This document shows positions 9,179-43,156 of a DNA stretch of 43,156 nt, piece by piece. Both the position numbers and the translations under genes were made by a program. The DNA is from Bryobacterales bacterium (GTDB taxonomy: Bacteria; Acidobacteriota; Terriglobia; Bryobacterales; Bryobacteraceae). Within the stretch, counting starts at the first letter, position 1. Each line of letters begins with the position of its first letter. Location of the stretch: NCBI GenBank assembly GCA_003142185.1, contig PLOR01000031.1, positions 1 through 43,156 on the forward strand, given 5' to 3'. The notes beneath the pieces were generated by a model that searched no databases, was not told the origin of the DNA, and was given only the letters and a program-made list of their open reading frames with translations.

Positions 9179-10087
9179 ATGGCAGAAGTGCGTGCGGAGG
9201 AAGCGGCCGGCCTGAAAGGCCATGCGCGCGCGTTTCTCAACTATTGCCGCGTGGAAAAAGGCCTGTCGGCCAACTCGATCAGTGCCTATGGTGCAGACCT
9301 CGATCGCTTTATCGTTTCTATCGGCGGCCATTCGGAACTCCCCGGACCGGAATCGCTGCGTCTCTATATTGATAGTTTATATCGGGGCCAGTTGAGCAAT
9401 CGTTCGGTGGCCAGGCATTTGGCCACGCTTCGCTGCTTTTTTCGGTTCTTGCTGCAGGAGGGCGTCATCGGCTGGGACCCGGCCCAGGAGTTGCGTCCGC
9501 CCAGGCAATGGCAGACCATCCCTAAGTTCCTTAATCTCGGGGAGATAGAGAAGCTGACTCAGGCACCCGATACCGCCCGGCCGACGGGTCTGCGCGACCG
9601 CGCCATGATTGAACTGCTGTATGCTTCCGGCCTCAGGGTTTCCGAATTGTGCCGGGTGGGGGTGGGCGACCTCGATGCCCGCATGGGTTACGTGCGGGTG
9701 ACCGGCAAAGGCAACAAGCAGCGCCTGGTACCGGTGGGGCGGGAGGCGATCAGTGCCGTCGAGCGATACCTGGCGGACGGCCGCGGCGCTCTGCTGAAGG
9801 GCCGCGCCAGCCGCTACCTATTCGTGACCGCGCGCGGCGGCTGCCTCACCCGGCAGGCATTTTGGAAACTGCTCGCCGGTTATGGACGCAAAGTGCAAAT
9901 CTTCCGCGGACTGACGCCCCATGTCCTGCGCCACAGTTTCGCCACCCACCTGCTGGACGGTGGAGCGGACCTGCGCAGCGTTCAGGTCATGCTGGGCCAC
10001 GCCGACATCTCGACTACCCAGATTTATACTCACGTCATGCGGTCGAGATTGCGGGAGACGGTTCAAAAGCATCATCCCCGCGCCTGA
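9179..10087 (+). CDS. xerD: site-specific tyrosine recombinase XerC/XerD family
   Basis: A 302-residue tyrosine recombinase, the usual size of XerC/XerD. An N-terminal SAM-like core-binding domain (about 15-100, with LSANSISAYGADLDRF) is followed by the catalytic domain (about 115-295). All catalytic positions are present: Arg153 (GLRVSEL), Lys177 (GKGNKQRLVP), His248 and Arg251 (HVLRHSFATHLL), His274 (LGHADISTTQIYTH) and Tyr283. Such enzymes resolve chromosome dimers at dif near the terminus. No dif-like 28-mer was recognised here, and no integron or phage genes flank it, so a housekeeping Xer role is favoured. The XerC versus XerD assignment is uncertain. Confidence 0.85.
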   Translation: MAEVRAEEAAGLKGHARAFLNYCRVEKGLSANSISAYGADLDRFIVSIGGHSELPGPESLRLYIDSLYRGQLSNRSVARHLATLRCFFRFLLQEGVIGWDPAQELRPPRQWQTIPKFLNLGEIEKLTQAPDTARPTGLRDRAMIELLYASGLRVSELCRVGVGDLDARMGYVRVTGKGNKQRLVPVGREAISAVERYLADGRGALLKGRASRYLFVTARGGCLTRQAFWKLLAGYGRKVQIFRGLTPHVLRHSFATHLLDGGADLRSVQVMLGHADISTTQIYTHVMRSRLRETVQKHHPRA

Positions 10088-10144
10088 GGATCACTACGAG
10101 AATTGGGGCGCGGGCCTTGTTGGTACGTTCGAGAGCGCACTTCG

Positions 10145-11452
10145 ATGAGCGACTACATCTATATCTTGGAAAGCCACCTCAGCCCGGACCAGAACCGGGT
10201 TCTGGGCGAGGTGATGGCCGCCGCGGGACAGGCTAATCTCAACCTGTTCCTAACCGGCGGCGCGATGCGCGACATGCTGGCTGGTTTCCGGATTCGCGAT
10301 CTCGATTTCGTGGTGGAGGGCGCGGCCCTGAAACTCGCCAAGGCGGTGGCCGACCACTCCGGCGCCACCATCGTTTCGGCGGACGAGAACCGCAAGAGCG
10401 CGGAGATCGAGTTCCCCTCCGGCGCCACCGCGCAAATCGCCATGTCGCGGCAAGAGAAATACCCGCGCGGCGGCGGCAAGGCGCAAGTTTCGCCAGCCAC
10501 CATTCAGGAAGATCTGCGCGGCCGCGATTTCACCTGCAACGCGATTGCGCTTTCGCTCAATAAGGCCTCGCGCGGGTTGCTGCTGGACCCGCTGAATGGC
10601 CTGGCGGACCTCGAACGCCGCGAACTGCGCGCCGTCAGCGCCTATGGATTTTACGACGACCCCACGCGCCTGCTGCGGCTGGTGCGATTGGGCGTGCGGC
10701 TGGGCTTCGCGACTGAGGAACGCACCGCGATGCAGGTGGCCAACGCCCGCGAAGCCGAGGTGGAAAAGGCGATCCCGCCGCGCGTGTTGGGAACGGAATT
10801 GAAGCTGATCGGCGTAGAGGATAACGCCGCAGGGGTTATCGAGGCGCTCGCCCAGGCCGGCTTGCTGGCGCTGTTCTGGCCCACCCTGGCCGAGGGTCAC
10901 GCGCACCGCGCCGGGCTGGCAAAATTCGACAAGATCGCCCACCTGCTGCCGGACGAAACCGAGACCCGCGCCGCCCGCCTCGGGCCATTCCTGTTCGCCC
11001 TGACGGAGAAGCTGAGCCCGCGCGAAAAGCAGGCGCTGGCCAAGCACCTCGAACTCTCCAAAGCGGACACCAACCAGTGGTTGCAACTGGAAGCGAGGTC
11101 GAAGAAGCTGGCGGCGGCGCTGCGTGCGCCGCGCATCCGCAAACCTTCGCAGGTGTACCAGTTGATTTCCACCGCCGCGCCGGACCAGGTGATGTTTCTG
11201 CTGTATGCTTCGCCGCTGAAGCCGGTGCAGGATCGCCTGCGGGCCTACTTCCAGAAGTATCTGCCGGCGGTCGAGGAAATCACGCCCGAGGAGTGGGCCA
11301 CCGTGGAAGCCAAACCGGCGCGCCAGCAGAAGGCCCGCGAAGAATTCATCGCCAACCGGCTGGACCGCCGTCCGCCGCGTAAGCCCGCGCCCGATCCGCT
11401 GCCGCCGCCGCCGCCGGCCCCAGAACCGTTCATGGCACGCCGCGCGCGGTGA
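10145..11452 (+). CDS. CCA-adding enzyme / poly(A) polymerase family nucleotidyltransferase
   Basis: A 435-residue class II tRNA nucleotidyltransferase-like enzyme. Residues 36-57 hold the nucleotidyltransferase signature FLTGGAMRDMLAG followed by DLDF, with metal ligands Asp52 and Asp54. The segment SAYGFYDDPTRLLRLVRLGVRLGF (about 165-190) is the conserved fingers/RNA-binding motif. A helical body follows, and the last 25 residues are a Pro-rich tail (PLPPPPPAPEP). The family adds CCA to tRNA 3' ends or, in paralogues, A tails to RNA; sequence alone does not separate these. The ATG at 10145 is used because conservation begins just after it. It lies 57 bases after the recombinase gene and may be co-transcribed. 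Confidence 0.8.
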   Translation: MSDYIYILESHLSPDQNRVLGEVMAAAGQANLNLFLTGGAMRDMLAGFRIRDLDFVVEGAALKLAKAVADHSGATIVSADENRKSAEIEFPSGATAQIAMSRQEKYPRGGGKAQVSPATIQEDLRGRDFTCNAIALSLNKASRGLLLDPLNGLADLERRELRAVSAYGFYDDPTRLLRLVRLGVRLGFATEERTAMQVANAREAEVEKAIPPRVLGTELKLIGVEDNAAGVIEALAQAGLLALFWPTLAEGHAHRAGLAKFDKIAHLLPDETETRAARLGPFLFALTEKLSPREKQALAKHLELSKADTNQWLQLEARSKKLAAALRAPRIRKPSQVYQLISTAAPDQVMFLLYASPLKPVQDRLRAYFQKYLPAVEEITPEEWATVEAKPARQQKAREEFIANRLDRRPPRKPAPDPLPPPPPAPEPFMARRAR

Positions 11453-11479
11453 CCGAACACGCCCCGGCTCGAAAGTCAT

Positions 11480-11953
11480 CTACCCCACAATGGACGTATT
11501 CTCTATCCGGTCGTGGGGCTGAAATCCATTGATAATCCGCCTCCATTCGACCTTGGGCCTTTGGAAGTTTATCAGAAGACATAATCCAAGGCCGGAGGCT
11601 CGCAGATAGTTGATGCATTGCGCGACGTGCTCGTTGGCGAGACGCTCCACGCATTTCAGCTCGATCACCAACACGCCCTCGACGAGGATATCGGCAAAGT
11701 ATTCGCCGACAGGGTGGCTCTTGTACGTGACAGCCAATGAGGCTTGGGCGGTAGCCCGAATACCGCGAAGGGCGAGTTCTCGAAGCAGCGCCCGCGCGTA
11801 GACCTTCTCGAGGAAGCCGGCGCCCAGAATATTGGAAACCTCGAAGACTGCGGCGAGCACGCGCTCGGTCAGCGAATCCAGGTATCCGTGTTCATCGGTG
11901 GCTAATCTTTGTGTGCCTTCCACGCGGCATTTCTCAGAACTATTACTGGCCAC
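11480..11953 (-). CDS. GxxExxY family protein
   Basis: Encodes up to 157 residues matching the GxxExxY family (TIGR04256-like): LGAGFLEKVYARALLREL supplies the name-giving GxxExxY, followed by YFADILVEGVLVIELKCVERL and HVAQCINYLRASGLGLCLLINF, a PD-(D/E)XK-like fold pattern (D...ELK). Members are widespread, often near repeats, and their function is unsettled, though the fold suggests a nuclease ancestry. The longest frame starts at a GTG (11953) within a block of 10-bp repeats, and this repeat is mirrored inside the first 25 codons, so the true start is uncertain. It converges with the nucleotidyltransferase gene. Confidence 0.8.
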   Translation of the reverse strand: MASNSSEKCRVEGTQRLATDEHGYLDSLTERVLAAVFEVSNILGAGFLEKVYARALLRELALRGIRATAQASLAVTYKSHPVGEYFADILVEGVLVIELKCVERLANEHVAQCINYLRASGLGLCLLINFQRPKVEWRRIINGFQPHDRIENTSIVG

Positions 11954-17800: not shown

Positions 17801-19887
<2,087 letters not shown>

Positions 19888-19917
19888 CAATCTCTAATTA
19901 ACAGGCATTTCCATTCC

Positions 19918-21543
19918 ATGACACAGAATTTGAAGTGGCGAACCGTGGTGATTGTGGTGACGATCCTGCTGTGCATTTTCGGCATCATCGGTCTGCCCAA
20001 ATCGAAAACCGACCTGGTCCAGAATCTGAAGGACAACATCCGCCTGGGGCTCGACCTGAAGGGCGGCAGCCAACTGGTGGAGGAGGTGCATGTCGAGGAC
20101 GCCGTGAAAGCGGATGCCGATCAGGCCATGGAGCGCATCAAGGCGGACATGGCCAAGCAAAACATCGGATTCTCGAGCATGGACCGCAACGATCCTCAGC
20201 CGGCGACGGTGGCGGATGCCGACAACATCATCATCACCGTGAAGGGCGTGCCGGAGACCGTGTCGAGCGCATTCCGCACTTTGGTAAACGAACGTTACAG
20301 CGCCTACGTGCTGACGGTGGTGAATTCCACCGATTACACGATGCGGCTGAAGCCTTCGGACCTGATCGCGCTAAAGCGCGATACGGTGGAACGCACGATC
20401 GATACGATCGACAACCGCATCAACCAGCTTGGCGTGGCGGAATCGAGCGTGCAGAAGTACGGCCGGGCCGGAGCAGACTACCAGGTGCTGGTGCAGTTGC
20501 CGGGCGTAGACGATCCGGCGCGGGTGAAAGAGTTGATCGGCACGGCGGCGGTGCTCGAAATCGACGAGGTCAAGGACGGCCCGTTCCCCAGCCGTGAAGC
20601 GGCGCTGGCGCAGAAGGGCGGCGTTCTGCCGCTGAACAGCAAGCTGGCCAAGGCCAAGCCGCGCGGCACGGCGCCGGGCGAAGAGTGGTTCCTGCTGGGG
20701 CGTCCGGCGGTGATCATGGGCAGCGAGATGCGCAACGCTCATGCCGGCCAGGACGAATACCGCAAGTGGGAAACCGGCTTCACCCTGTCGCCGGACGGCG
20801 GTCGCCGGTTCGGCATGTTCACCGAGAAGAATATCGGCAACAAGCTGGCGGTGGTACTGGATAACCAGATCGTAAGCGTAGCCACCATTCAGTCCAGGAT
20901 CGAAGACTCCGGACGCATCACCAACCTGGGCAGCGAAGAGGAATCCGAGGATCTGTCGCGCTACCTGCGCTCGGGTTCGCTGCCGGCCAGTGTAACGCCG
21001 GTGGAGGAGAGATCGGTCGGGCCATCGCTGGGCGCGGACTCGATCCGGGAAGGAATGCAGGCGGCCATCGCGGGCCTGGTAGCGGTGGTGGTGGTGATGC
21101 TGTTTTACTACAAGCGCAGCGGCATTAACGCGGTGCTGGCGCTACTGCTGAATACCGTGATCCTGCTGGCGGCGATTTCCTATTTTCATGCCGCGCTCAC
21201 CTTGCCGGGGATCGCGGGTGTGATTCTGACGATTGGTATGGCGGTGGATTCGAACGTACTGATTTTCGAGAGAATCCGCGAGGAACTGCGGGCCGGCAAG
21301 GCGGTGGTGGCCGCGGTGGAGAACGGTTTCAACAAGGCGTGGTGGACGATCGTGGATACCCACGTCACCACGATCGTGTCGTGCGCCTTCCTGTTTCTGT
21401 TCGGGGAAGGCCCGGTGAAAGGATTCGCGGTCACGCTGACGATCGGTCTGGCCGCCAACGTTTTCACGGCGGTATTCGTGTCGCGGACGATCTTCAACTA
21501 CGAATTGTCCGGACGGCACCGGATGGAGACGCTGAGTATTTAG
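19918..21543 (+). CDS. secD: protein translocase subunit SecD
   Basis: A 541-residue inner-membrane protein that, with SecF, uses the proton gradient to help the Sec channel release and pull exported proteins. Helix 1 is about 9-29. The first periplasmic domain begins RLGLDLKGGSQL and contains the long P1 region; IDNRINQLGVAESSVQKYGR marks its second half. The C-terminal five-helix half starts near SVGPSLGADSIREGM and contains LTIGMAVDSNVLIFERIREEL, the conserved D/R-containing motif of the family. A weak ribosome-binding site precedes the ATG. SecF follows as a separate gene after 254 bases, a longer gap than is usual for fused or overlapping secDF. Confidence 0.95.
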   Translation: MTQNLKWRTVVIVVTILLCIFGIIGLPKSKTDLVQNLKDNIRLGLDLKGGSQLVEEVHVEDAVKADADQAMERIKADMAKQNIGFSSMDRNDPQPATVADADNIIITVKGVPETVSSAFRTLVNERYSAYVLTVVNSTDYTMRLKPSDLIALKRDTVERTIDTIDNRINQLGVAESSVQKYGRAGADYQVLVQLPGVDDPARVKELIGTAAVLEIDEVKDGPFPSREAALAQKGGVLPLNSKLAKAKPRGTAPGEEWFLLGRPAVIMGSEMRNAHAGQDEYRKWETGFTLSPDGGRRFGMFTEKNIGNKLAVVLDNQIVSVATIQSRIEDSGRITNLGSEEESEDLSRYLRSGSLPASVTPVEERSVGPSLGADSIREGMQAAIAGLVAVVVVMLFYYKRSGINAVLALLLNTVILLAAISYFHAALTLPGIAGVILTIGMAVDSNVLIFERIREELRAGKAVVAAVENGFNKAWWTIVDTHVTTIVSCAFLFLFGEGPVKGFAVTLTIGLAANVFTAVFVSRTIFNYELSGRHRMETLSI

Positions 21544-21629
21544 GAACTCGTCAGAAGCGAGCGGGTTTAGTGGCCGGGGACCGCTCCCTACGGGGAGCCC
21601 ACTGGGCCGGCTGGGTTCGGTTGATACAG

Positions 21630-21657
21630 TTGTTACGGAACGCGTGTTTGATACAAT
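21630..21657 (+). promoter_or_regulatory. candidate promoter in the secD-secF gap
   Basis: TTGTTA (21630-21635) and TACAAT (21652-21657) are separated by 16 bases, both close to the sigma-70 consensus. This would start secF independently, about 135 bases before its ATG. Predicted only. Confidence 0.4.
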
Positions 21658-21797
21658 GACCGAGCGGAAAAAAAGAGCGGGAATCGGGTGCGGCGGGCGG
21701 AAGCCGACCGGCAGCCGGATCCTTGGCGGGCGGGCGGGAACAAAACGGAAAAGGCTGGTGTCCAACCTTACATCAGGCACCGGCATGGCACGTATCG

Positions 21798-23027
21798 ATG
21801 GAATTATTTAAAAGCACGAATTACGATTTTCTGGGCAAGAAGTGGCCGTTTATCATCGCCAGCCTGGTGCTGACGGCGGCCGGATTGATCAGCATCGCGG
21901 CCAAGGGCGGGTTGAAGTATGGGATCGACTTCAAGCAAGGCGTGATGATGACGGTGAAGTTCGCCTACACGCCGCCGCTCGATAAGATTCGCTCCGCCAT
22001 GTCCTCCTCGCCCCAGATTAAAGGCGAAGTTTCGGTGCAGAACGAAACCAGCGCGCAGAACACGGTCGAGATCGGCACGGAGGCGGTGAGCGAGGGCCAG
22101 ATGAACGTCAATCGCCAGGACATGTCGGATGTTCTGACGGCAACCTTCGGGCAGGGCGCGGGCGGCAAGCTGGATTTCAACAATGCCGGGCATGACGCGC
22201 TGGCGGAACGGCTGCGCGATGCGCTGGCGCGCAACAACGTGTCCGCGAGCGAACAGGACTTGCAGAACCTGGTAACGGGGCTGCTCTCGACGCGCGACAC
22301 TCAGCACTCCGGGCTGATCGCAAATTTTAATCAATTGTCTTCCACGCCGGGCGTAAATACTGGTATTATGAACACTCTTCACGAGGAGTGTTACTTGGCT
22401 CCTTTCCACATTGCGGGAGTGGAAATGGTGGGACCGAAGGTGGGCGCGGAACTGCGCAAGAAGGCCGTTCTGGCCACGCTATACGCGCTGGCCGGCATGC
22501 TGGCCTATATCGCCTTTCGATTCGAGTGGATTTACGGGCTGGGCGCGGTGATCGCCTGCTTCCACGACACTATCATTACGATCGGACTGTTTTCGTTATT
22601 CAACAAGGACATCACGATGACGGTGATCGCGGCCTTGTTAACGCTGGTGGGCTATTCGATGAACGACACCATCGTGATTTTCGACCGCATCCGGGAGAAC
22701 CTGAAGATGTCCCGGCGTGAGCCTCTGGAAGCGGTGATGAACCGGGCGGTGAACCAGACGCTGAGCCGGACGGTAATGACTTCGGGGCTGACGTTTTTGA
22801 CGGTGATCGCGCTGTTCCTGTTCGGCGGCCCGGTGCTGAACGGATTCTCGTTCGCGCTGGTATGCGGCATCCTGGTGGGAACGTATTCTTCGGTATTTGT
22901 GGCCAGTCCGATTGTGCTGTTCTGGCATGGGTGGGCGGACCGGCGGGGCGGGAGGACAGCCCCCGTCATGGCTACGGCGCCCCGGCCGGACGCGCCGCGG
23001 AAGAATGCGGCCAAGGCGGTGAGGTAA
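21798..23027 (+). CDS. secF: protein translocase subunit SecF
   Basis: A 409-residue inner-membrane partner of SecD. The ATG at 21798 gives MELFKSTNYDFLGKKW, the usual short cytosolic tail, then helix 1 (about 17-36), YGIDFKQGVMMTVKF, the periplasmic domain, and the five-helix C-terminal half with GYSMNDTIVIFDRIRENLK, the SecF signature. Typical SecF proteins are near 300-320 residues. Here the periplasmic domain (about 40-220) is about 90 longer, with a Gln/Asn/Ala-rich insertion (about 75-175) not seen in E. coli. The extra length is in frame and protein-like, so it looks lineage-specific. The last 25 residues are a Pro/Ala-rich tail. Confidence 0.93.
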   Translation: MELFKSTNYDFLGKKWPFIIASLVLTAAGLISIAAKGGLKYGIDFKQGVMMTVKFAYTPPLDKIRSAMSSSPQIKGEVSVQNETSAQNTVEIGTEAVSEGQMNVNRQDMSDVLTATFGQGAGGKLDFNNAGHDALAERLRDALARNNVSASEQDLQNLVTGLLSTRDTQHSGLIANFNQLSSTPGVNTGIMNTLHEECYLAPFHIAGVEMVGPKVGAELRKKAVLATLYALAGMLAYIAFRFEWIYGLGAVIACFHDTIITIGLFSLFNKDITMTVIAALLTLVGYSMNDTIVIFDRIRENLKMSRREPLEAVMNRAVNQTLSRTVMTSGLTFLTVIALFLFGGPVLNGFSFALVCGILVGTYSSVFVASPIVLFWHGWADRRGGRTAPVMATAPRPDAPRKNAAKAVR

Positions 23028-32859: not shown

Positions 32860-32958
32860 AATTGTAGTGTATGAACATGGATCGGTATGAATCGGGGTCG
32901 CTGAACAACACAGAGAGTGGCGGCCCGGCCTCATGGCAGGCGGAAACGGAGTAACCAG

Positions 32959-34053
32959 GTGGAATCGGAAGGGACTGTTCGACTCCGGACTGCGACATTG
33001 GCCGATGCGGAAGCGATCGCACAATTGCATAAGCGGAATGGTATGGGCGATCTCGACCCAGTGGCGTGGCGCAGCCAGTGGGATGCCTACCCTTTCGCCG
33101 CGGAATTTCGGGACGTCGCAATTGGGTGGGTTCTGGAAACGGAGACTGGCGGAGTGGTGGGCTATCTGGGCAACATCCACATGCTTTACGATCTCGGTGG
33201 GCGGAGCGTTAAGGGAGCGATTGCCACGGCCTGGGCGGTGGATGCCAGTCACCGCAACAGGTCTCTGCAGTTGATGACCGCTTTCCTAAAGCAAAGGAGC
33301 GTCGATCTGTGGCTGGACGGCAGCGCCAACCCCACCGCATCACGGGTGCTGACTGGCATGAAATTAGCGCGCATCCCGATACCCGGTTACGATGTTCCAT
33401 GCTTCTGGGCCGCGCGGCCGCAAGGATTCGCGAAGGCGGTTCTATCGAAGAGAGCGATCCCCGGAGCGAGCGCTCTGGCCCGGCCGGTGGGAATGCTCCT
33501 CAACGCAAGAGATATCGTCCGGCGTAGTGGCCGGGGGCGCACTTCTTCTACTGTGTATCGTCTCGGAGGCTTCGACGATCGCTTCGAAGTTTTCTGGCAG
33601 GGTCTTCGCGCAGACCCGCTCCGTCTGCGCGCGGTGCGCACCAAAGCGGTGCTGGAGTGGAGGTTTGGCGGACAACTTCGCAGCGGCCGCGCCACAATTG
33701 TCGCGGCCGAGCGGAACGGAACGCTCTCCGGTTACGCGGTTCTCGTGCGCCGGGAGTCACCTGAATTGGGGATGGATTTGTACGATGTGGCGGACCTTCA
33801 GGCATTGCGGGACGCCCCCGCGACCATCAGAGACCTCTTGCTGGGGTCGATCGGAATCGCCCGCGAAGAAGGCGTGGACGCCGTCAAATTCATGACTGGC
33901 ACTCCGGCGAAGCGCGCCCCTGCCGATGAGTTGCGGCCCTACACGTACCGCCTGGCGTCCTGGCAACTGTATTACAAGGTGGAGGCGCCCGAGCTGAAGG
34001 CGTCGTTGGCCACAGCCGATGCCTGGGACTTTTCGCTTTTCGATACGTACTAG
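32959..34053 (+). CDS. GNAT-family acyltransferase beside the FkbH/ACP cluster
   Basis: A 364-residue protein starting at GTG 32959, with CGGAG about 9 bases upstream. Residues 1-140 form a GNAT-type N-acyltransferase domain (VRLRTATLADAEAIAQLHKRN, GAIATAWAVDASHRNRSLQLMTAFLKQ, where the R-N-R region is the usual acyl-CoA/phosphopantetheine-loop position). The second half (about 190-360) is a further GNAT-like fold (GYAVLVRRESPELGMDLYDVADLQAL). It converges with the MaoC-SDR gene with 16 bases between them, and its neighbours make acyl-carrier-protein-bound acyl groups, so it is a candidate for the final transfer of that acyl group to an amine. This role is inferred. Confidence 0.65.
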   Translation: MESEGTVRLRTATLADAEAIAQLHKRNGMGDLDPVAWRSQWDAYPFAAEFRDVAIGWVLETETGGVVGYLGNIHMLYDLGGRSVKGAIATAWAVDASHRNRSLQLMTAFLKQRSVDLWLDGSANPTASRVLTGMKLARIPIPGYDVPCFWAARPQGFAKAVLSKRAIPGASALARPVGMLLNARDIVRRSGRGRTSSTVYRLGGFDDRFEVFWQGLRADPLRLRAVRTKAVLEWRFGGQLRSGRATIVAAERNGTLSGYAVLVRRESPELGMDLYDVADLQALRDAPATIRDLLLGSIGIAREEGVDAVKFMTGTPAKRAPADELRPYTYRLASWQLYYKVEAPELKASLATADAWDFSLFDTY

Positions 34054-34069
34054 ACCCGGCGTGCGGATA

Positions 34070-35248
34070 TCACAATTGGCCTCCGGTGAGCGGCAGAATC
34101 TGACCGGTGACAAACGCGGCGCGCTCGGACAGGAAGAAGTCCACGGCTCCGGCGACGTCATCCGGCGAGCAGAGTTTCCCTAGCGGCACCTTGGCGGTTT
34201 CCGTCAGAATGACCCGGTTGGTTTTGGCGCTGTTCATCCCCACCGGGACAAACGACGGCGCGACCAGGTTGATGGTGATGTTACCGCGCGCAAGCTCCGG
34301 AGCCAGCAAGCGAACCGTATGCTCGAGCGCCGCTTTCCCAAGCGAGTACGCGGACATGCTCACCACCGGCTTGATGGTGGCCGCGGTGGATCCCAAAATG
34401 ACGAGCCGGCCCGCGGGACCGCCGAACGAGCGCAGGAATCGGGCGATGCGAATGGTGGTCACACTGCCGAATTCCACCTGGGCGCGGACCGCATCGGTTT
34501 CCACGTCGAGCAAGCCGCCTTGCGGGCCAGGCGGCCAGGCCGCATGCACCAACCCGTAGAGCCGGCGGCCGCACAGGTGACGTTCCACCGACTGTTCCCA
34601 ATCCCCTGCTTGTAAGTCCGCGGCAAGCCACTCGACACGCGGGTAACTCGATTCCGAAGGCGCGGCGAGTGACCTGGCCATACCAATGACCTGGTAAGTT
34701 CCACTGAGGCGGGCAACCAGAATCCGCCCCAGACCGCCGCTGGCGCCGGTGATCAGAACGACTGGTTTGTTCTCCGCGGAGGCAGGCGCGGCCTCAGCCT
34801 CATGCGCCGGGAGGGAACGACGTTCGTGGAGCGAGAACCCGACGTGAATTTCCGAGGTCAGCGTGACGGTGGAGATCTCGATTACTCGGACCCGAATGGC
34901 GCCGCTTGCGGATTTGGGTACCCACGTCGTTATCTCACCGTGCACACGCACGCGCGAGGGATAGTGCAACGGGGCGGGGAAACGGCATTGAAAAGACCCC
35001 ACGACAACGTGACGGCCCGGCAGATACATGCCAGCCATGGCCGAGGCGAGCGCCACCTGGAATGCACCGTGTACGATTCGACCGCCGTAATTGGTTTGCG
35101 CCGCGTACGCTTCGTCGGTGTGCAATGGATTCCAGTCGCCGGAAAGTTCGGCGAATGAAGTTACATCGTCCACTGTAATCTCACGTTCGAATTCGGCCTG
35201 GAGACCGGTCCGCAGCTCGCCGGCCGTGAATGCGCGCGACTCATCCAT
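34070..35248 (-). CDS. MaoC-like dehydratase fused to short-chain dehydrogenase/reductase
   Basis: A 392-residue fusion of two fatty-acid-type enzymes. Residues 15-140 form a hotdog (MaoC) dehydratase with the catalytic pair Asp38 and His43 (SGDWNPLHTDEAY) and the GGRIVHGAF helix. After a linker (145-160) a short-chain dehydrogenase begins: cofactor loop TGASGGLG (167-174), and Ser287, Tyr301 and Lys305 (YSLGK) form the catalytic triad. The pair would reduce a 3-ketoacyl or dehydrate a 3-hydroxyacyl group on a carrier protein, which fits its position after the ACP. The ATG at 35248 overlaps the ACP stop by 8 bases, so translation is coupled. Fusion of these two domains is uncommon. Confidence 0.85.
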   Translation of the reverse strand: MDESRAFTAGELRTGLQAEFEREITVDDVTSFAELSGDWNPLHTDEAYAAQTNYGGRIVHGAFQVALASAMAGMYLPGRHVVVGSFQCRFPAPLHYPSRVRVHGEITTWVPKSASGAIRVRVIEISTVTLTSEIHVGFSLHERRSLPAHEAEAAPASAENKPVVLITGASGGLGRILVARLSGTYQVIGMARSLAAPSESSYPRVEWLAADLQAGDWEQSVERHLCGRRLYGLVHAAWPPGPQGGLLDVETDAVRAQVEFGSVTTIRIARFLRSFGGPAGRLVILGSTAATIKPVVSMSAYSLGKAALEHTVRLLAPELARGNITINLVAPSFVPVGMNSAKTNRVILTETAKVPLGKLCSPDDVAGAVDFFLSERAAFVTGQILPLTGGQL

Positions 35249-35495
35249 TGGCGGACTTACTCTCCAGATAGTCGACGATCAACGCGTAAGAAACCAACTC
35301 CTCGAAATCTTCCAGCTCGAAGTCCAGGCCGAACTCTTCCGCAATCGAGGAGAGAAGTGTGACGTGCGCCACCGAATCCCATGCCGCCAGCGAGGCCGTG
35401 CTGGCGCGAGGTATCTCCTCCTCCCGGATGTCCGGGAACACGTTGGAAAAACAACGGGCGACCTTCTCTTTCGTGTCGTTCATTTTGGATGACAT
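35241..35495 (-). CDS. acyl carrier protein
   Basis: An 84-residue acyl carrier protein. Asp40-Ser41 in AAWDSVAHVTLL is the phosphopantetheine attachment site (DS pattern), followed by IAEEFGLDFELEDFEEL, the acidic helix 2/3 face that docks partner enzymes. Composition is acidic, as expected. It is distinct from a housekeeping AcpP, which would lie beside fabF or fabD. It starts one base after the FkbH-like gene stops and overlaps the MaoC-SDR gene, so it is the carrier shared by this cluster. Confidence 0.9.
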   Translation of the reverse strand: MSSKMNDTKEKVARCFSNVFPDIREEEIPRASTASLAAWDSVAHVTLLSSIAEEFGLDFELEDFEELVSYALIVDYLESKSANG

Positions 35496-35496
35496 T

Positions 35497-37221
35497 TCAT
35501 TCTGTCAGATTCGCGACTTCGTGCGGTAGCGCCCCGCAGCGATCGACAAAACCGGAACGCGATATGCGATGGACGTCCTCGGCGCCCCGGGGTACGTCAA
35601 GGGCGCGGAAAAACTCCTGGAGCGGCTGGTTTCTTTCGGTCGCCTCAAAGGCGAACTCGATTTCTTCGGCGTTGGTGTGGCGGAAGAGGCTGTCGAGAAT
35701 GTGATGCTCGATCCGCCGCGAGAACGCCCGGCAGCTCATCACCCAATGCGAAACCCTGACCAAGCGGCCGGCTTGCGATCCGACCAGAACCGCGATCTTT
35801 CCCAGCGGACCGAATTTGTCCCGATAGGAAACCACGGCGACGATCGCATCTTTCCGTTCCAGCAGGCGCTGCCATTCGCTCTCGCCCATGCGGACGCCGT
35901 TGAGATTAAACTGATTGGTCTTGTTGATCAGATCGAGCGGCCGTTTATCGGCCGAGTCAACACGCCAGGCCAGCGTCACGGTACCCTGCAGCGTGCGAAG
36001 GAACTCGGCCGCGCCGCCGTCCGCCGCCATCTCGCGGACCTGGGCCGAGGCACGGATGCTGGATTGCCGCAGCCGGTCCTCCTCCAATTGCACCGGTTTG
36101 CCGAACAGATCGCGCAGACGCCCGAGCAGGTTCCACACCGCCGCGGGATCTCTGCCGGGAAACGCGAGACACGTCATTCCCGGATAAGCCCGCTCGACCT
36201 CGTCCAGTTCCATCGGGCTGTCATCGACGAAAACCACGGCATCGGCCGCAATGTTCCACGTGTCGAGAATGCGGCCCACCGAGGCCGATTTCTGCCCCCA
36301 GTTGGCGCAGACGGGGAACAGCGATTCGGCATTCAGAAACAGGTCCTTCCGTGCCAGTGCAGCCTCTGCCGTCGTCATTTCGTTCTTCGAGCAGGCAGCC
36401 AGCAGCACGCCGCAACTTGCCAGATGGCCGAGCATCTGCTGATACAGCCCGTGCGTCTGCGTGTGGTGCTCCTGGCTCCAGGAGATCGCGTCCACCCCTA
36501 TCTCGCCCGCGACTCCCGACCACAGCGTGCCATCCAGATCGGTGATGAGGCCCTTCTTCGGCGCCGGCTGGCAAAGTACGTCGACCAGCGAGGCTGCCAG
36601 GCCGCTCGCGAACGGGACCGTGTACGGGAAGCCGGCGATCAGTTCCATGCGAGCGTCGAGCGAGGCAACCGCCGGCTCGATCCGCGATCGTTCGATCACG
36701 CGCACGCCGGAGACCCGCGAGATGCGAAGGAGGAACCGAGCGAGTTGCTGCCCCAGTTCCAGTTCCAGGACACTGCTCTGGGCGCGAATCGTGTTTCCGA
36801 TCGGCGGCAAAGGCAGGCTGGGCGGAGCCAGCGCCACCGGCATGCGGCCGGCCAGCGCGACGATAGCCGCTTCGAGGTGCGTGTAGCGCTCGATGCAATT
36901 GGCGATCAGATCCGCCTTGGCTTCATTCGACCAGCCGCCGCTGCTGCGCAGGCCGAGCCGCGGGTCGAGGTCGCTCCACTCCAGCACCACCGCACAGGCG
37001 GTAACCGCCGTTCGCGCGGCCGCATCGACGTTGCCGCGGAGGTCGCCGTAAACTCCGCACTGCACCTCGACATTCCCATCGTCCCGCAGCCGTTCCAGCA
37101 GATGGGCACGCAACAGGGTCGCCAGATGCAGCGGCTCGAAGCCGCAAGCCAGATAGTAAGTCCCGTCCTCACTGTTCCCTTTTCGGGAGTTGATGAGAGC
37201 CAGAGCCTGGTTGAGCGTCAT
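35497..37221 (-). CDS. FkbH-like HAD-family glyceryl-loading enzyme
   Basis: A 574-residue protein of the FkbH/HAD-IIIC family, which takes 1,3-bisphosphoglycerate, dephosphorylates it and loads the glyceryl group on a carrier protein. Asp228 and Asp230 in DLDGTLWSGVAGE are the HAD nucleophile and acid; SKN (278-280) and VDDSPMELDEVE (332-343) are motifs II and III. The C-terminal part has NKTNQFNLN (433-441) and MSCR (495-498), the cysteine-containing motif typical of the glyceryl-transfer module. The first 220 residues are the variable N-terminal domain. Six bases separate it from the PIG-L gene, and one base from the ACP. Known members supply glyceryl-ACP to polyketide and sugar-acylation pathways. 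Confidence 0.9.
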   Translation of the reverse strand: MTLNQALALINSRKGNSEDGTYYLACGFEPLHLATLLRAHLLERLRDDGNVEVQCGVYGDLRGNVDAAARTAVTACAVVLEWSDLDPRLGLRSSGGWSNEAKADLIANCIERYTHLEAAIVALAGRMPVALAPPSLPLPPIGNTIRAQSSVLELELGQQLARFLLRISRVSGVRVIERSRIEPAVASLDARMELIAGFPYTVPFASGLAASLVDVLCQPAPKKGLITDLDGTLWSGVAGEIGVDAISWSQEHHTQTHGLYQQMLGHLASCGVLLAACSKNEMTTAEAALARKDLFLNAESLFPVCANWGQKSASVGRILDTWNIAADAVVFVDDSPMELDEVERAYPGMTCLAFPGRDPAAVWNLLGRLRDLFGKPVQLEEDRLRQSSIRASAQVREMAADGGAAEFLRTLQGTVTLAWRVDSADKRPLDLINKTNQFNLNGVRMGESEWQRLLERKDAIVAVVSYRDKFGPLGKIAVLVGSQAGRLVRVSHWVMSCRAFSRRIEHHILDSLFRHTNAEEIEFAFEATERNQPLQEFFRALDVPRGAEDVHRISRSGFVDRCGALPHEVANLTE

Positions 37222-37227
37222 GGCACC

Positions 37228-38097
37228 CTATCTCCCGTTTGCCGGTGCGGATGGCTCGGCGGCGCGGATTCGGCCTGCGAGCTCGATGTATTCCTCGCGG
37301 GGGAGTTCGAAGAATCGCTCCGCGTACCGGCACGTGCCCGCGCCGAGCATGCGCGAGTGAAACATATTCAGTCCCAGCGTGCTGTTGACGTAATCCAGCG
37401 CCGAATTGGCGAACGTGAAACAGCGGAGCATTTCGGTTTTGGTTTCGATCACATCGTCGATAATCAAAACCACGTTCGGAATACACATTCCCCAAACCTC
37501 GTACCCGAAAACCCGCACGTTCCAGGAAATCTTCCGCAAGGCGCCGGCCAGGATGTAGTTTGCGGTACGGTGATCGCGATGCCCGTCGAGCGCGAATGGA
37601 ATGAAGACAGCATCGGCCTTGCGCTCGATCAGGACCTCCGCCAGTTCCGCGATCTGAGCACCGTCGTCCGCCAGCACGGGGTGATTGAGAAAGACCGGAG
37701 ACGCAGCGATCACGGCGGCGGCGCGCCGCGATTCTTCATTGCGCATCTCCATCATGCCCTGCCGCGTGAAGCCTAGTTCCTCGCACCCATCGGCGCCGTC
37801 CTGTAGGACGACGATGGAGGGCGCATTCCCACTGCTCGCCTGAAGGGCGAGCGCGCCTCCGCACCCGATTGCTTCATCGTCCTGGTGCGGTGCGATGACG
37901 ACTATCGATTTGCCGAACGGCGCCCGGATCGGAATGGCGCGGACAAAGTTGGAGAAGTAGTCCGTCGCCGAAGCCAGCGCCAGCATGCGCAATTCGATAT
38001 CGCCCAGACCAGCCTTCAGAAACAACTTGAACTGGCTGCGCGCGTACAAAAGAGGGAGCGCGTTGCGATAGATCTGCCGCAGGTAGTCGCGAATCAT
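37228..38097 (-). CDS. PIG-L/LmbE family deacetylase
   Basis: A 289-residue member of the PIG-L/LmbE zinc deacetylases, which remove N-acetyl groups from amino sugars (GlcNAc-PI, GlcNAc-Ins, N-acetylglucosamine conjugates). The zinc signature APHQDDE (His71, Asp73, Asp74) and HRDH (His173-His176) are both complete. The first 60 residues (LLYARSQFKLFLKAGL) are an extra N-terminal helical part. It is the first gene of the operon PIG-L - FkbH - ACP - MaoC/SDR (gaps 6, 1 and -8 bases). Its job may be to free an amine that the cluster then acylates, an inference. A 15-bp palindrome at 38179-38193 lies about 80 bases before the start. Confidence 0.88.
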   Translation of the reverse strand: MIRDYLRQIYRNALPLLYARSQFKLFLKAGLGDIELRMLALASATDYFSNFVRAIPIRAPFGKSIVVIAPHQDDEAIGCGGALALQASSGNAPSIVVLQDGADGCEELGFTRQGMMEMRNEESRRAAAVIAASPVFLNHPVLADDGAQIAELAEVLIERKADAVFIPFALDGHRDHRTANYILAGALRKISWNVRVFGYEVWGMCIPNVVLIIDDVIETKTEMLRCFTFANSALDYVNSTLGLNMFHSRMLGAGTCRYAERFFELPREEYIELAGRIRAAEPSAPANGR

Positions 38098-40915: not shown

Positions 40916-43156
40916 TCACTGATAGTGCAGCGCCTGGCCCGGATCGGTGGCGGCGGCGCGGCGGGCGGGAATGAAGGTCGCGATCAGAGCGACCAGCGAG
41001 AGGATGGCGGCGACCGCGGCGAGAGTCCACGGGTCGCCGGCTTTCACGCTGAACAGCAGGCTGGCGAGGAAGCGTGTCAGCAGGTACGCCAGCGCCAGGC
41101 CGATCGCCACGCCCATTCCAGCCAGTTTCAAGCCTTGGCCGAGCATCAGCTTCAACACGTCGCCGCGGCTCGATCCCAAGGCCATGCGGATGCCGATTTC
41201 CTGAGTGCGTTGTTCGACCGAATACGACATCACGCCGTAGATGCCGATCGCGGCCAGCAGCAGCGCAATGACGGCGAAAATGGTGAGCAGCAGCATGTTG
41301 AAGTTCTGCCGCGCCATGGTTGACGCGAGCACCTTCTCCATCGGCTCGACGTGCGAAACCGTCATGGTGGCGTCGACGGCCTGGATTTGGCGCTCGACGG
41401 CGGCGCTCAGAGCCATTGGGTCGCCACGCCCCCGCACCGCCCAGGCCAGCGGAATGAGTTGGCGAACCAGTTCCATCATTCCCTGCGGCACTTGGGCTTC
41501 CGGAAGGTACATGACTCCGAGATCGCCATTCGCCACCCCGGCTTCCTTGACCGTTCCCACCACGCCCACGATTTCCCGCGGAGGGTCCGCAAACTGCGGG
41601 CCGAGGCCCTGGCCGATGGTGATCACCTGGCCGATGGGGTCCTGATTCGGCCAGTAGCGCTTGGCCATGTGCTGATTGATAATCACCACCGGCGTGGCGT
41701 TGCCGGTATCGGTCTCGGTGAAGCGCCGGCCGCGCAGCAGCGGAATGCGAAACGCCTGGAAGTAATGCCCGGCAACGAACCGGTATTGCTCGTCGCCGTT
41801 GTACTGGTCGCCCTTGGCGGGAGGCTTGCCGGCGATATTGAACGGCAGGTCAATTCCGTAGCCGATTCCTGGCAGTAACACCGCGGTCGCGGCCGCCTCT
41901 ACGCCAGGGACGCCCTCGATGCGGCGCAGCGTGTCGGTGGTGAATGCATCGATCTTGCCGGTGGTGGAATAGGCGCCGCTGGTGAGCGAAGTGGCCATGG
42001 TGAGGACATTGTGCGGGTCGATGCCGGGTTGGGCGTTGCTGAGGCCGACGAAGGTGCGGATGAGGAGAGCCGCGCCGGCCACCAGCACCAGCGCCAGCGC
42101 CACCTCGGCGACCACCAGGGACGAGCGGAGGCGATTCTGGCGCCGGCTGGTCCCGGAGCGGTTGCCGGCTTCCTTGAGGGCGGACACCAGATCGAGCTTC
42201 GATGCCTGCAGCGCCGGGATGAGGCCAAAGAGAACGCCGGTGAGCAGAGCGGCGGCCAGGGTGAACGCGGCCACGCGCCAATCGAGCGGCGGCGCCACCG
42301 CGCGCACGCCGTCCGCATCCATCAGGCGCGGGATGTTGGCGGGAACCAGCAGCAACAGCGCGCGCACTCCCCAGGAACCGAGTGCGTAGCCGAGCGCGCC
42401 GCCGATCCCGGCCAATAAGACACTTTCGGTGAGCAGTTGGCGCACCACCCGCCAGCGGCCGGCGCCCACGGCGGCGCGCACCGCCATTTCGCGCTGGCGA
42501 GCGGCGGCCCGCGCGAGCAGCAGGTTCGCCACATTGGCGCAGGCGATCAGCAGCACGAATCCCACCGCGCCCAGCAGGACCAGCAAGGCCGTCTTGATGT
42601 CGCCAACGGTGGCTTCGCGCATGGGCGTCACGGCCACGGATTCTCCCTTGTCCATCCACTTCGGATTCTCTTTGCGGAAGCGCTCGCCGGCGATCTTCAT
42701 CTCCGCGCGCGCCGCAGACAGGGTCACGCCGGGCTTGAGCCGCGCGGCAACATTCAAATAATGGCCTTGGTTGGTGGAGTGCGGGTCGGCCTGGAGCGGC
42801 AGGAACACTTCTGATTGGGGTTCCGAGTGGAAACCCTTGGGGAGCACGCCGAGGACGGTGTACGGCTGGCCGTTGAGCAGGACAGGGCGGCCAATAATGC
42901 GCGGGTCGCCGCCGAGGCGCGACTGCCACATTTCGTGCGTCAGCACGGCCACCGCCGGGCCGTCCGGTACGTCTTCGGACGGAGTGAACGCGCGGCCCAT
43001 CGACGGACCCACGCCGAAAACCTGGAAGAAGCCCGAGGAAACCTGGAGCGTCTTCACTTCCTCCGGCCGGTCGCCTGCGCCCAGGTTCATTCCGGAGGCC
43101 CCGAAACCGTACAGGGTCATCGACTGGAAGACGTGGTTGTCCTTCCAGGCCATGAA
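40916..43156 (-). CDS. ADOP-family MacB/FtsX permease, N-terminus beyond the window
   Basis: A large integral-membrane permease; at least 746 residues are present, and the frame runs off the window end, so the start is missing. The N-terminal MacB periplasmic core-like domain (VSSGFFQVFGVGPSMGRAFTPSEDVPDGPAVAVLTHEMWQSRLGGDPRIIG) is followed by two FtsX blocks, each ending in a PARRAA-type loop (LARAAARQREMAVRAAVGAGRWRVVRQLLTESVLLAG and IGIRMALGSSRGDVLKLMLGQGL). Acidobacteria carry many such ADOP genes, usually without a partner ATPase beside them. The substrate is unknown; members are related to macrolide/peptide exporters. Confidence 0.93.
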   Translation of the reverse strand, partial: FMAWKDNHVFQSMTLYGFGASGMNLGAGDRPEEVKTLQVSSGFFQVFGVGPSMGRAFTPSEDVPDGPAVAVLTHEMWQSRLGGDPRIIGRPVLLNGQPYTVLGVLPKGFHSEPQSEVFLPLQADPHSTNQGHYLNVAARLKPGVTLSAARAEMKIAGERFRKENPKWMDKGESVAVTPMREATVGDIKTALLVLLGAVGFVLLIACANVANLLLARAAARQREMAVRAAVGAGRWRVVRQLLTESVLLAGIGGALGYALGSWGVRALLLLVPANIPRLMDADGVRAVAPPLDWRVAAFTLAAALLTGVLFGLIPALQASKLDLVSALKEAGNRSGTSRRQNRLRSSLVVAEVALALVLVAGAALLIRTFVGLSNAQPGIDPHNVLTMATSLTSGAYSTTGKIDAFTTDTLRRIEGVPGVEAAATAVLLPGIGYGIDLPFNIAGKPPAKGDQYNGDEQYRFVAGHYFQAFRIPLLRGRRFTETDTGNATPVVIINQHMAKRYWPNQDPIGQVITIGQGLGPQFADPPREIVGVVGTVKEAGVANGDLGVMYLPEAQVPQGMMELVRQLIPLAWAVRGRGDPMALSAAVERQIQAVDATMTVSHVEPMEKVLASTMARQNFNMLLLTIFAVIALLLAAIGIYGVMSYSVEQRTQEIGIRMALGSSRGDVLKLMLGQGLKLAGMGVAIGLALAYLLTRFLASLLFSVKAGDPWTLAAVAAILSLVALIATFIPARRAAATDPGQALHYQ

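Follow-up and report, generated by a model that had tools for sequence, protein, structure and literature searches.

In the portions of the literature available, FkbH-like enzymes feed polyketide and peptide assembly lines, forming a carrier-bound glyceryl group from 1,3-bisphosphoglycerate (PMC7489565, PMC8949500). A 43,156-nucleotide contig of a Bryobacterales bacterium (PLOR01000031.1, assembly GCA_003142185.1; the whole stretch is here termed the window) encodes an FkbH-like enzyme together with a stand-alone acyl carrier protein (ACP), a MaoC-SDR fusion, a PIG-L/LmbE-type deacetylase and a double-GNAT N-acyltransferase. An FkbH-like enzyme with a stand-alone ACP is also the arrangement of the tetronate and methoxymalonyl-ACP pairs (Mad7/Mad8, Mad14/Mad12), in which glyceryl passes to a FabH-like enzyme or to dehydrogenases for polyketide synthesis, whereas here the pair is accompanied by MaoC-SDR, PIG-L and the double GNAT. 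The loading module of bryostatin BryA reportedly contains FkbH-like, DH, KR and ACP domains that generate D-lactyl, for which no confirmation was found in the literature searched, including PMC4979870 and PMC7600079. The chemistry proposed below is similar (glyceryl, dehydration, ketoreduction, lactyl on a carrier), but in BryA it is carried out by polyketide synthase domains and provides a polyketide starter, whereas here the proteins are separate and the predicted product is an N-acyl group.

Other parallels are found in the acylation of sugar amines. The wfp genes of Flavobacterium psychrophilum encode an ACP, ketosynthases, a reductase and an acyltransferase and, in the part of the source available, this dedicated ACP is predicted to carry a hydroxyacyl group that is moved to the sugar amine of UDP-Qui2NAc4N (PMC6519341). 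There the acyl group originates from ketosynthases and the acyltransferase is of the PglD type, whereas here FkbH would be the source. In the PglE-type route the amine arises by transamination, unlike the PIG-L deacetylation proposed here. In the teicoplanin-type deacetylase/N-acyltransferase pair and in mycothiol synthesis (MshB/MshD), a PIG-L/LmbE enzyme frees a glucosamine (GlcN) amine and a GNAT-type enzyme acylates a product, but the acyl group comes from CoA and there is no FkbH, ACP or MaoC-SDR. N-myristoyltransferase (NMT) and Eis share a fold with almost the entire chain of the window GNAT; their identities to it are, however, 7-12% in the rows listed, and the window GNAT is encoded beside carrier proteins. 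Each part of the locus belongs to a known family or fold and it is the combination that is new relative to the literature searched, in which we found no described system with this exact gene set, as a first-pass annotation of the window had supposed, no FkbH that supplies a paired deacetylation and re-acylation unconnected with polyketide or peptide assembly, and nothing that links FkbH to O-antigen.

The five genes, listed in Table 1, are a conserved, movable unit and very probably act together. What they do together is less certain, and we give about even chances to the proposal that they constitute a self-contained deacetylate-and-reacylate cassette that makes its own acyl group. FkbH would take glycerate from 1,3-bisphosphoglycerate, remove the phosphate and load glyceryl onto the dedicated ACP; elimination of the beta-hydroxyl group by MaoC would turn glyceryl-ACP into hydroxyacryloyl/pyruvyl-ACP, and reduction of the alpha-keto group by the fused SDR would yield lactyl-ACP. 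In relatives with an epimerase-like VOC protein instead, the action would be on the alpha carbon. PIG-L would strip the N-acetyl group from an amino sugar of a cytoplasmic glycan precursor, either a nucleotide sugar or a lipid-linked saccharide, and the double GNAT would move the acyl group from the ACP to the freed amine. The first-pass annotation had similarly suggested that a glycerate-derived acyl-ACP is made and transferred to an amine freed by PIG-L. That interpretation is partly supported, by the co-conservation of the genes, the co-occurrence of PIG-L with FkbH (P 0.0038) and the polysaccharide contexts of orthologues, all documented below. The inositol-linked amino sugar that it also named as a possible acceptor finds no support here, and it left the particular MaoC-SDR reaction unassigned.

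Table 1. Genes of the five-gene locus, with window positions
Feature	Position	Strand	Basis and motifs
PIG-L/LmbE-type deacetylase, 289 aa	37228..38097	-	PF02585; motifs PHQDDE, HRDH
FkbH-like ACP-loading enzyme, 574 aa	35497..37221	-	TIGR01686; lipase-like N-terminal domain, HAD phosphatase domain, C-terminal GNAT-fold domain
Stand-alone acyl carrier protein, 84 aa, WDS phosphopantetheine site	35241..35495	-	PF00550 slightly below cut-off
MaoC (hydratase 2 / hotdog)-SDR fusion, 392 aa	34070..35248	-	Pfam MaoC + adh_short_C2
Double-GNAT N-acyltransferase, N-myristoyltransferase/Eis fold, 364 aa	32959..34053	+	structure model

As first annotated, the genes run in the order PIG-L, FkbH, ACP, MaoC-SDR at distances of 6, 1 and -8 bases, and the stop codons of MaoC-SDR and the convergent GNAT gene face each other 16 bases apart. 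The start codon of the GNAT gene is the GTG at 32959; its longest open reading frame (ORF) opens at 32917 and aligned relatives begin near 32959. The family labels assigned from the letters to PIG-L, FkbH, MaoC and SDR are borne out by curated Pfam and NCBIfam cut-offs. The ACP scores 18.9 bits with PF00550 (E 0.0019; cut-off 20.8) and retains the D-S site, and the GNAT, which reaches no Pfam or NCBIfam cut-off, has the fold of an N-acyltransferase according to its predicted structure and comparison with solved folds. No ketosynthase, adenylation domain or glycosyltransferase was recognised nearby, in agreement with the earlier description, and no FabH-like or nonribosomal peptide synthetase (NRPS) gene near FkbH, among the long ORFs of the window, eight of whose proteins were scanned with Pfam and the others judged by eye. 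A polyketide-cluster reading was dropped because no ketosynthase was recognised near the cassette.

The first-pass annotation had made its interpretation depend on co-conservation, and the five genes do recur together in G342, in G343 and, over two contig ends, in G311. In G342 and G343 all are on a single strand in the order GNAT-FkbH-ACP-MaoC/SDR-PIG-L, with identities to the window proteins of ~52% (GNAT), ~55% (FkbH), ~68% (ACP), ~61% (MaoC-SDR) and ~59% (PIG-L); as these two genomes are 97-98% identical at the locus, they are counted once. In G311 one contig ends with PIG-L and the first part of FkbH, and another with the remainder of FkbH, the ACP, MaoC-SDR and a convergent GNAT, consistent with the window order, and we infer that these contigs join because the FkbH fragments abut. 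The flanking genes of the three settings are uvrC and a TIM-barrel gene, a Mur-ligase-family gene (folC-like), and sorbosone dehydrogenase with a thiamine pyrophosphate enzyme. A chance association of all five in three settings and two gene orders is very unlikely, and the GNAT belongs to the set. The same observations, with the abutting and overlapping of the genes, argue against two unrelated units, an FkbH-ACP-MaoC/SDR acyl-supply operon and a PIG-L/GNAT pair, that happen to adjoin. Such a division would accommodate the FkbH-ACP-MaoC/SDR genes that occur without PIG-L at other loci, and the PIG-L and GNAT-type genes present without long FkbH in G336, G362 and G401, and we consider it highly improbable.

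Gene distributions were determined in 299 genomes of the class and 237 of the family, with thresholds of E<=1e-80 for long FkbH, E<=1e-40 for MaoC-SDR, E<=1e-25 for PIG-L and E<=1e-30 for the window-type GNAT. Long FkbH is present in 22 genomes of the class sample and 51 of the family sample and, among the matches listed, the records of this subfamily are labelled Acidobacteria, Planctomycetes and a few other groups. All five class genomes with MaoC-SDR and all four with PIG-L also have FkbH. In the family sample PIG-L is found in 10 genomes, including that of the window (G000), nine of these at 52-100% identity; G010 (36% identity, E 3.9e-28) is outside this nine-carrier set. FkbH is present in 6 of the 9 PIG-L carriers and in 45 of the 228 other genomes (Fisher P 0.0038; 0.0079 with G010 included). 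Neighbourhoods were compared at 40 FkbH loci, namely the best 38 of 80 listed (547 relatives passed the test), the window and G115; the remaining 42 of the 80 are distant FkbH with shorter matches. Three loci with a truncated FkbH (L057, L062, L064) were kept among the 40, the pairs L033/L057 and L041/L061 each derive from a single assembly, and the identical sites L031/L153 and L064/L157 were each counted once. Two further loci that were searched, L160 and L161, are outside the 40-locus count.

The window FkbH scores 214.1 bits with TIGR01686 (cut-off 146.65) and its structure model, with a predicted local distance difference test score (pLDDT) of 86, matches 3slr with Z 22.1 across 361 residues. 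By fold, its domains resemble lipase 6nkd (Z 12.4, residues 19-219), MDP-1 1u7o (Z 16.3, 218-376) and RimI 2cnm (Z 14.2, 414-556), the GNAT fold spanning residues 413-560 of the model. Within the long subfamily the HAD motif DxDxT is conserved in 39/39 rows, and both DD and the cysteine of an SCR motif in 41/41, with one site counted twice (L161 is the L066 site). In 39 distant FkbH proteins, alignment finds both motif aspartates, DD and the SCR cysteine in all and the threonine in 26; these counts were used in place of those from a strict regular expression, which recovers DxDxT in 20/39. The SCR cysteine lies in the GNAT-fold domain and may be the acyl carrier, a guess based on work on OzmB. 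The cysteine that the window FkbH has in a CSKN sequence of the HAD domain was not taken as catalytic because the residue before SKN is alanine in 35/40 subfamily rows and varies in distant FkbH, with cysteine in 10/39. An ACP gene directly follows FkbH in 33 of the 40 loci, is within 3 kb in three, and none was found in four; the ACP serine is present in 37/37 rows of relatives. By analogy with its family, the window FkbH would load glyceryl onto this dedicated ACP. The window's own genome also encodes a second, distant FkbH-like protein (G000:C41:43251-44204; 30% identity).

The fusion protein combines, in a single chain, Pfam matches to MaoC (66.4 bits, cut-off 27) and adh_short_C2 (82.1, cut-off 27). 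The nearest solved relatives of the MaoC half are 3ir3, 2b3m and the (R)-specific enoyl-CoA hydratases 5cpg/1iq6. Among relatives, the MaoC aspartate and histidine and the SDR tyrosine and lysine are retained in 12/12 rows, the SDR serine column in 9/12, window included, and the three TGxxxGxG glycines in 12, 11 and 12 of 12. MaoC hydratases work on beta-hydroxyacyl thioesters and, as the primary hydroxyl of glyceryl is at the beta position, MaoC elimination would give the enol of pyruvyl-ACP, which the SDR would convert to lactyl-ACP. Conversion of glyceryl to lactyl is the simplest chemistry that we can assign to this step. At 14 of the 40 loci there is instead a VOC-family protein, and none of these is among the 11 with MaoC-SDR (P 0.0033). 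One such locus, L067 of the cultured Singulisphaera acidiphila, combines VOC with FkbH and ACP. The best match of the VOC proteins is methylmalonyl-CoA epimerase TIGR03081 (E 1.7e-16 for L031, below the equivalog cut-off), and His, Glu, His and Glu residues are retained in 15/15 rows. Methylmalonyl-CoA epimerase-like enzymes work on the alpha carbon of a thioester. As MaoC-SDR and VOC never occur together and have the same partners, the data suggest that each tailors the ACP-bound product of FkbH. At a site without an adjoining FkbH, L160 in G322 (9491-11941), ACP, MaoC-SDR and a GNAT-like gene are consecutive, the last a member of family G12 (GNAT-like by eye, with a faint Pfam indication); a different contig of G322 (L161) encodes FkbH together with ACP, VOC and a GNAT-like protein.

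Alternatively, the cassette might function as proposed but with an acyl group that remains glyceryl, the MaoC-SDR acting on some other thioester or being a side activity. N-D-glyceroyl amino sugars are known from O-antigens, D-glyceroyl being present on a diamino sugar of Pragia fontium in the part of that report available (PMC10609480), and no N-lactyl amino sugar was found in the literature searched, as far as its accessible text extends. Furthermore, 29 of the 40 loci have no MaoC-SDR and many of these still keep FkbH and ACP. In the window, however, the MaoC-SDR gene directly follows and overlaps the ACP gene, the four catalytic-type residues Asp, His, Tyr and Lys are retained throughout its relatives, and the mutual exclusion with VOC suggests tailoring of the same ACP-bound acyl group. 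On balance, a final product that is still glyceryl seems unlikely.

For the deacetylation step, the PIG-L protein scores 62.3 bits with PF02585 (cut-off 28.2) and its translation contains PHQDDE and HRDH, in accord with the DDE and HxDH metal motifs of PIG-L/LmbE enzymes. Its closest solved relatives are 1uan and the diacetylchitobiose deacetylases 8bgn/3wl4. Bacillithiol deacetylase was considered and rejected, with scores of 47.4 against the BshB1 cut-off of 182.5 and 22.9 against 195.25 for BshB2. Eight of the nine PIG-L genes share a block with, or adjoin, an N-acyltransferase gene. This is a window-type GNAT in five (the window genome, G311 across contigs, G336, G342 and G343) and an Acetyltransf_6 gene in three (G362, G401 and, as a fragment, G115). 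All three PIG-L genes from genomes without long FkbH still adjoin a GNAT-type gene. This association with N-acyltransferase genes supports deacetylation that is coupled to re-acylation. In G336 (L218, 9837-12818), close to a contig end, PIG-L is followed by a window-type GNAT and then by a KAS III-like gene (ACP_syn_III_C), which is perhaps an alternative acyl-supply module for the PIG-L/GNAT pair.

The AlphaFold2 model of the window GNAT, built from 14 aligned sequences, has pLDDT 91.2 and a predicted template modelling score (pTM) of 0.89. Foldseek matches it to 5npq (E 6.4e-13), and comparison with the N-myristoyltransferase 4cax by VIA gives Z 21.3 and a root-mean-square deviation of 4.4, with 319 of 364 residues aligned. 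NMTs and Eis-type double GNATs are matched across nearly the whole chain; VIA was confined to the matches of Foldseek itself, so that folds outside that list are possible. In this model the window GNAT is a two-domain N-acyltransferase fold, which leaves donor and acceptor unspecified. Twelve of the 14 aligned chains stop at either of two points ~3 residues apart, with L037 two residues longer and L163 extending far beyond, and residue 364 of the model falls opposite the final residues aligned in the NMTs. In NMT and Eis the carboxylate at the C terminus serves as general base, and the same role for the GNAT C-terminal carboxylate is a testable prediction. Three of seven GNAT relatives without FkbH were inspected and all are near acyl-activating genes. 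In L162 (9849-12966) the GNAT, a carrier protein and an AMP-dependent ligase are in a row, in L163 (6947-10187) the GNAT adjoins an AMP ligase, and in L164 (9612-13554) an AMP-binding/PP-binding protein is 1.2 kb from the GNAT. Proximity to acyl-activation genes of differing kinds fits a carrier-bound donor, and the double GNATs probably use acyl-ACP. A weaker relative in L125 (G144:C32) shares a long open frame with a part that by eye is adenylation-like, perhaps as a natural fusion.

Polysaccharide genes surround several orthologues, which supports the earlier guess that the amine acylated belongs to a glycan. In G193, PIG-L is next to a SIS-domain gene, an HldE-like gene, GT4 and a hexapeptide transferase, and a hexapeptide transferase of the same kind adjoins PIG-L in G362. 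G115 has FkbH, VOC, ACP and a GNAT-like gene (by eye, with no Pfam match) next to GT2, AsnB, GT4 and polysaccharide-deacetylase genes. Contig C96 of the window's own genome carries a gene for a GT4 homologue (61% identity) in company with those for AsnB, a nucleotide-sugar dehydrogenase, a bacterial sugar transferase and a hexapeptide transferase. This cluster was dropped as proof of function and is considered context, because the GT4 homologue also occurs in genomes without long FkbH. Alternatively, the product might be not a surface polysaccharide but a small metabolite, secreted or kept inside the cell, either an amino sugar with an N-acyl group or something thiol-like. In favour of this, no glycosyltransferase was seen by eye next to the cassette, either in the window or on the G311, G342 and G343 contigs, which are short. 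The links of GNAT relatives to AMP-binding and NRPS-like proteins also favour such a metabolite, and PIG-L relatives act on small molecules of the mycothiol and bacillithiol pathways. The polysaccharide-type neighbours of PIG-L or FkbH orthologues in G193, G115 and G362, and the low BshB1 score of the window PIG-L, point the other way, and we regard a small-metabolite product as doubtful.

Several observations weigh against the proposed deacetylate-and-reacylate cassette, or limit its reach. The literature searched yielded no assay of any of the five proteins. The window-type GNAT is present at 4 of the 40 FkbH loci, the match in L040 (E 7e-4) being disregarded, and in 10 of the 299 class genomes, only three of which, all with >50% identity, have long FkbH. 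A further 13 of the 40 loci have one of five other families of ~330-400 residues that were taken for GNATs by eye; Pfam bears this out for one (L047) and weakly suggests it for another (L034, E 0.019), while the other three have no Pfam match. A double-GNAT partner shared across FkbH loci was withdrawn after profile comparison: with shallow alignments, hhalign gives G12, G15, G28, G32 and GL154 probabilities of 30, 1.4, 18.6, 0.2 and 14%, respectively, of kinship to the window GNAT, and with such values no common double-GNAT rule can be drawn for FkbH loci. None of the other 10 MaoC-SDR loci has PIG-L in its own locus, although that of G311 is on another contig and several contigs are short, and the acyl group on which MaoC and SDR work may not be glyceryl. 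Three of the nine PIG-L genomes, G336, G362 and G401, have no long FkbH, and the PIG-L of G193 has no GNAT neighbour and is not linked to FkbH, which is together with ACP, VOC and GNAT on a different contig. No glycosyltransferase was seen by eye near the cassette in the window, and the GT4 homologue is also present in G001, G008 and G025, for which no long FkbH is shown. The tests of co-occurrence, both for PIG-L with FkbH and for MaoC-SDR with VOC, ignore shared ancestry. Finally, G001, which is 91% complete and the only other genome of the genus in the samples, has neither PIG-L nor long FkbH, so that the cassette is patchy. A clean empty site in this sister species was sought and rejected; in G001 the genes on either side of the TIM-barrel neighbour are unrelated, and therefore no insertion junction can be read.

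The neighbourhood of the cassette is otherwise ordinary, with uvrC adjoining. Elsewhere in the window, positions 18144-23027 appear by eye to be a tgt/yajC/secD/secF-like housekeeping run, and 40916-43156 encode a large ABC-type permease (MacB/FtsX-like, by eye) that is interrupted by the window end.

A broader generalisation, which we offer tentatively, is that acylation outside assembly lines is modular. Exchangeable acyl-supply modules would feed NMT-like double GNATs that use a C-terminal carboxylate base and acylate a sugar amine freed by PIG-L, the modules being FkbH-ACP-MaoC/SDR (lactyl), FkbH-ACP-VOC (inverted glyceryl), AMP ligase-ACP and KAS III. If so, the swapping of a module would change the chemistry of the cell-surface glycan. 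The failure of profile comparison to tie the other GNAT-like families near FkbH to the window GNAT makes this generalisation less likely, but does not affect the cassette itself. For the FkbH enzymes themselves, the long subfamily appears to feed glycan N-acylation, drawing directly on glycolysis, and glyceryl is predicted to be converted to lactyl on a carrier protein by a stand-alone pathway. The locus also extends the bacterial double GNATs by a family whose donor is probably acyl-ACP, and provides a concrete means to predict unusual N-acyl groups on the surface sugars of uncultured bacteria.

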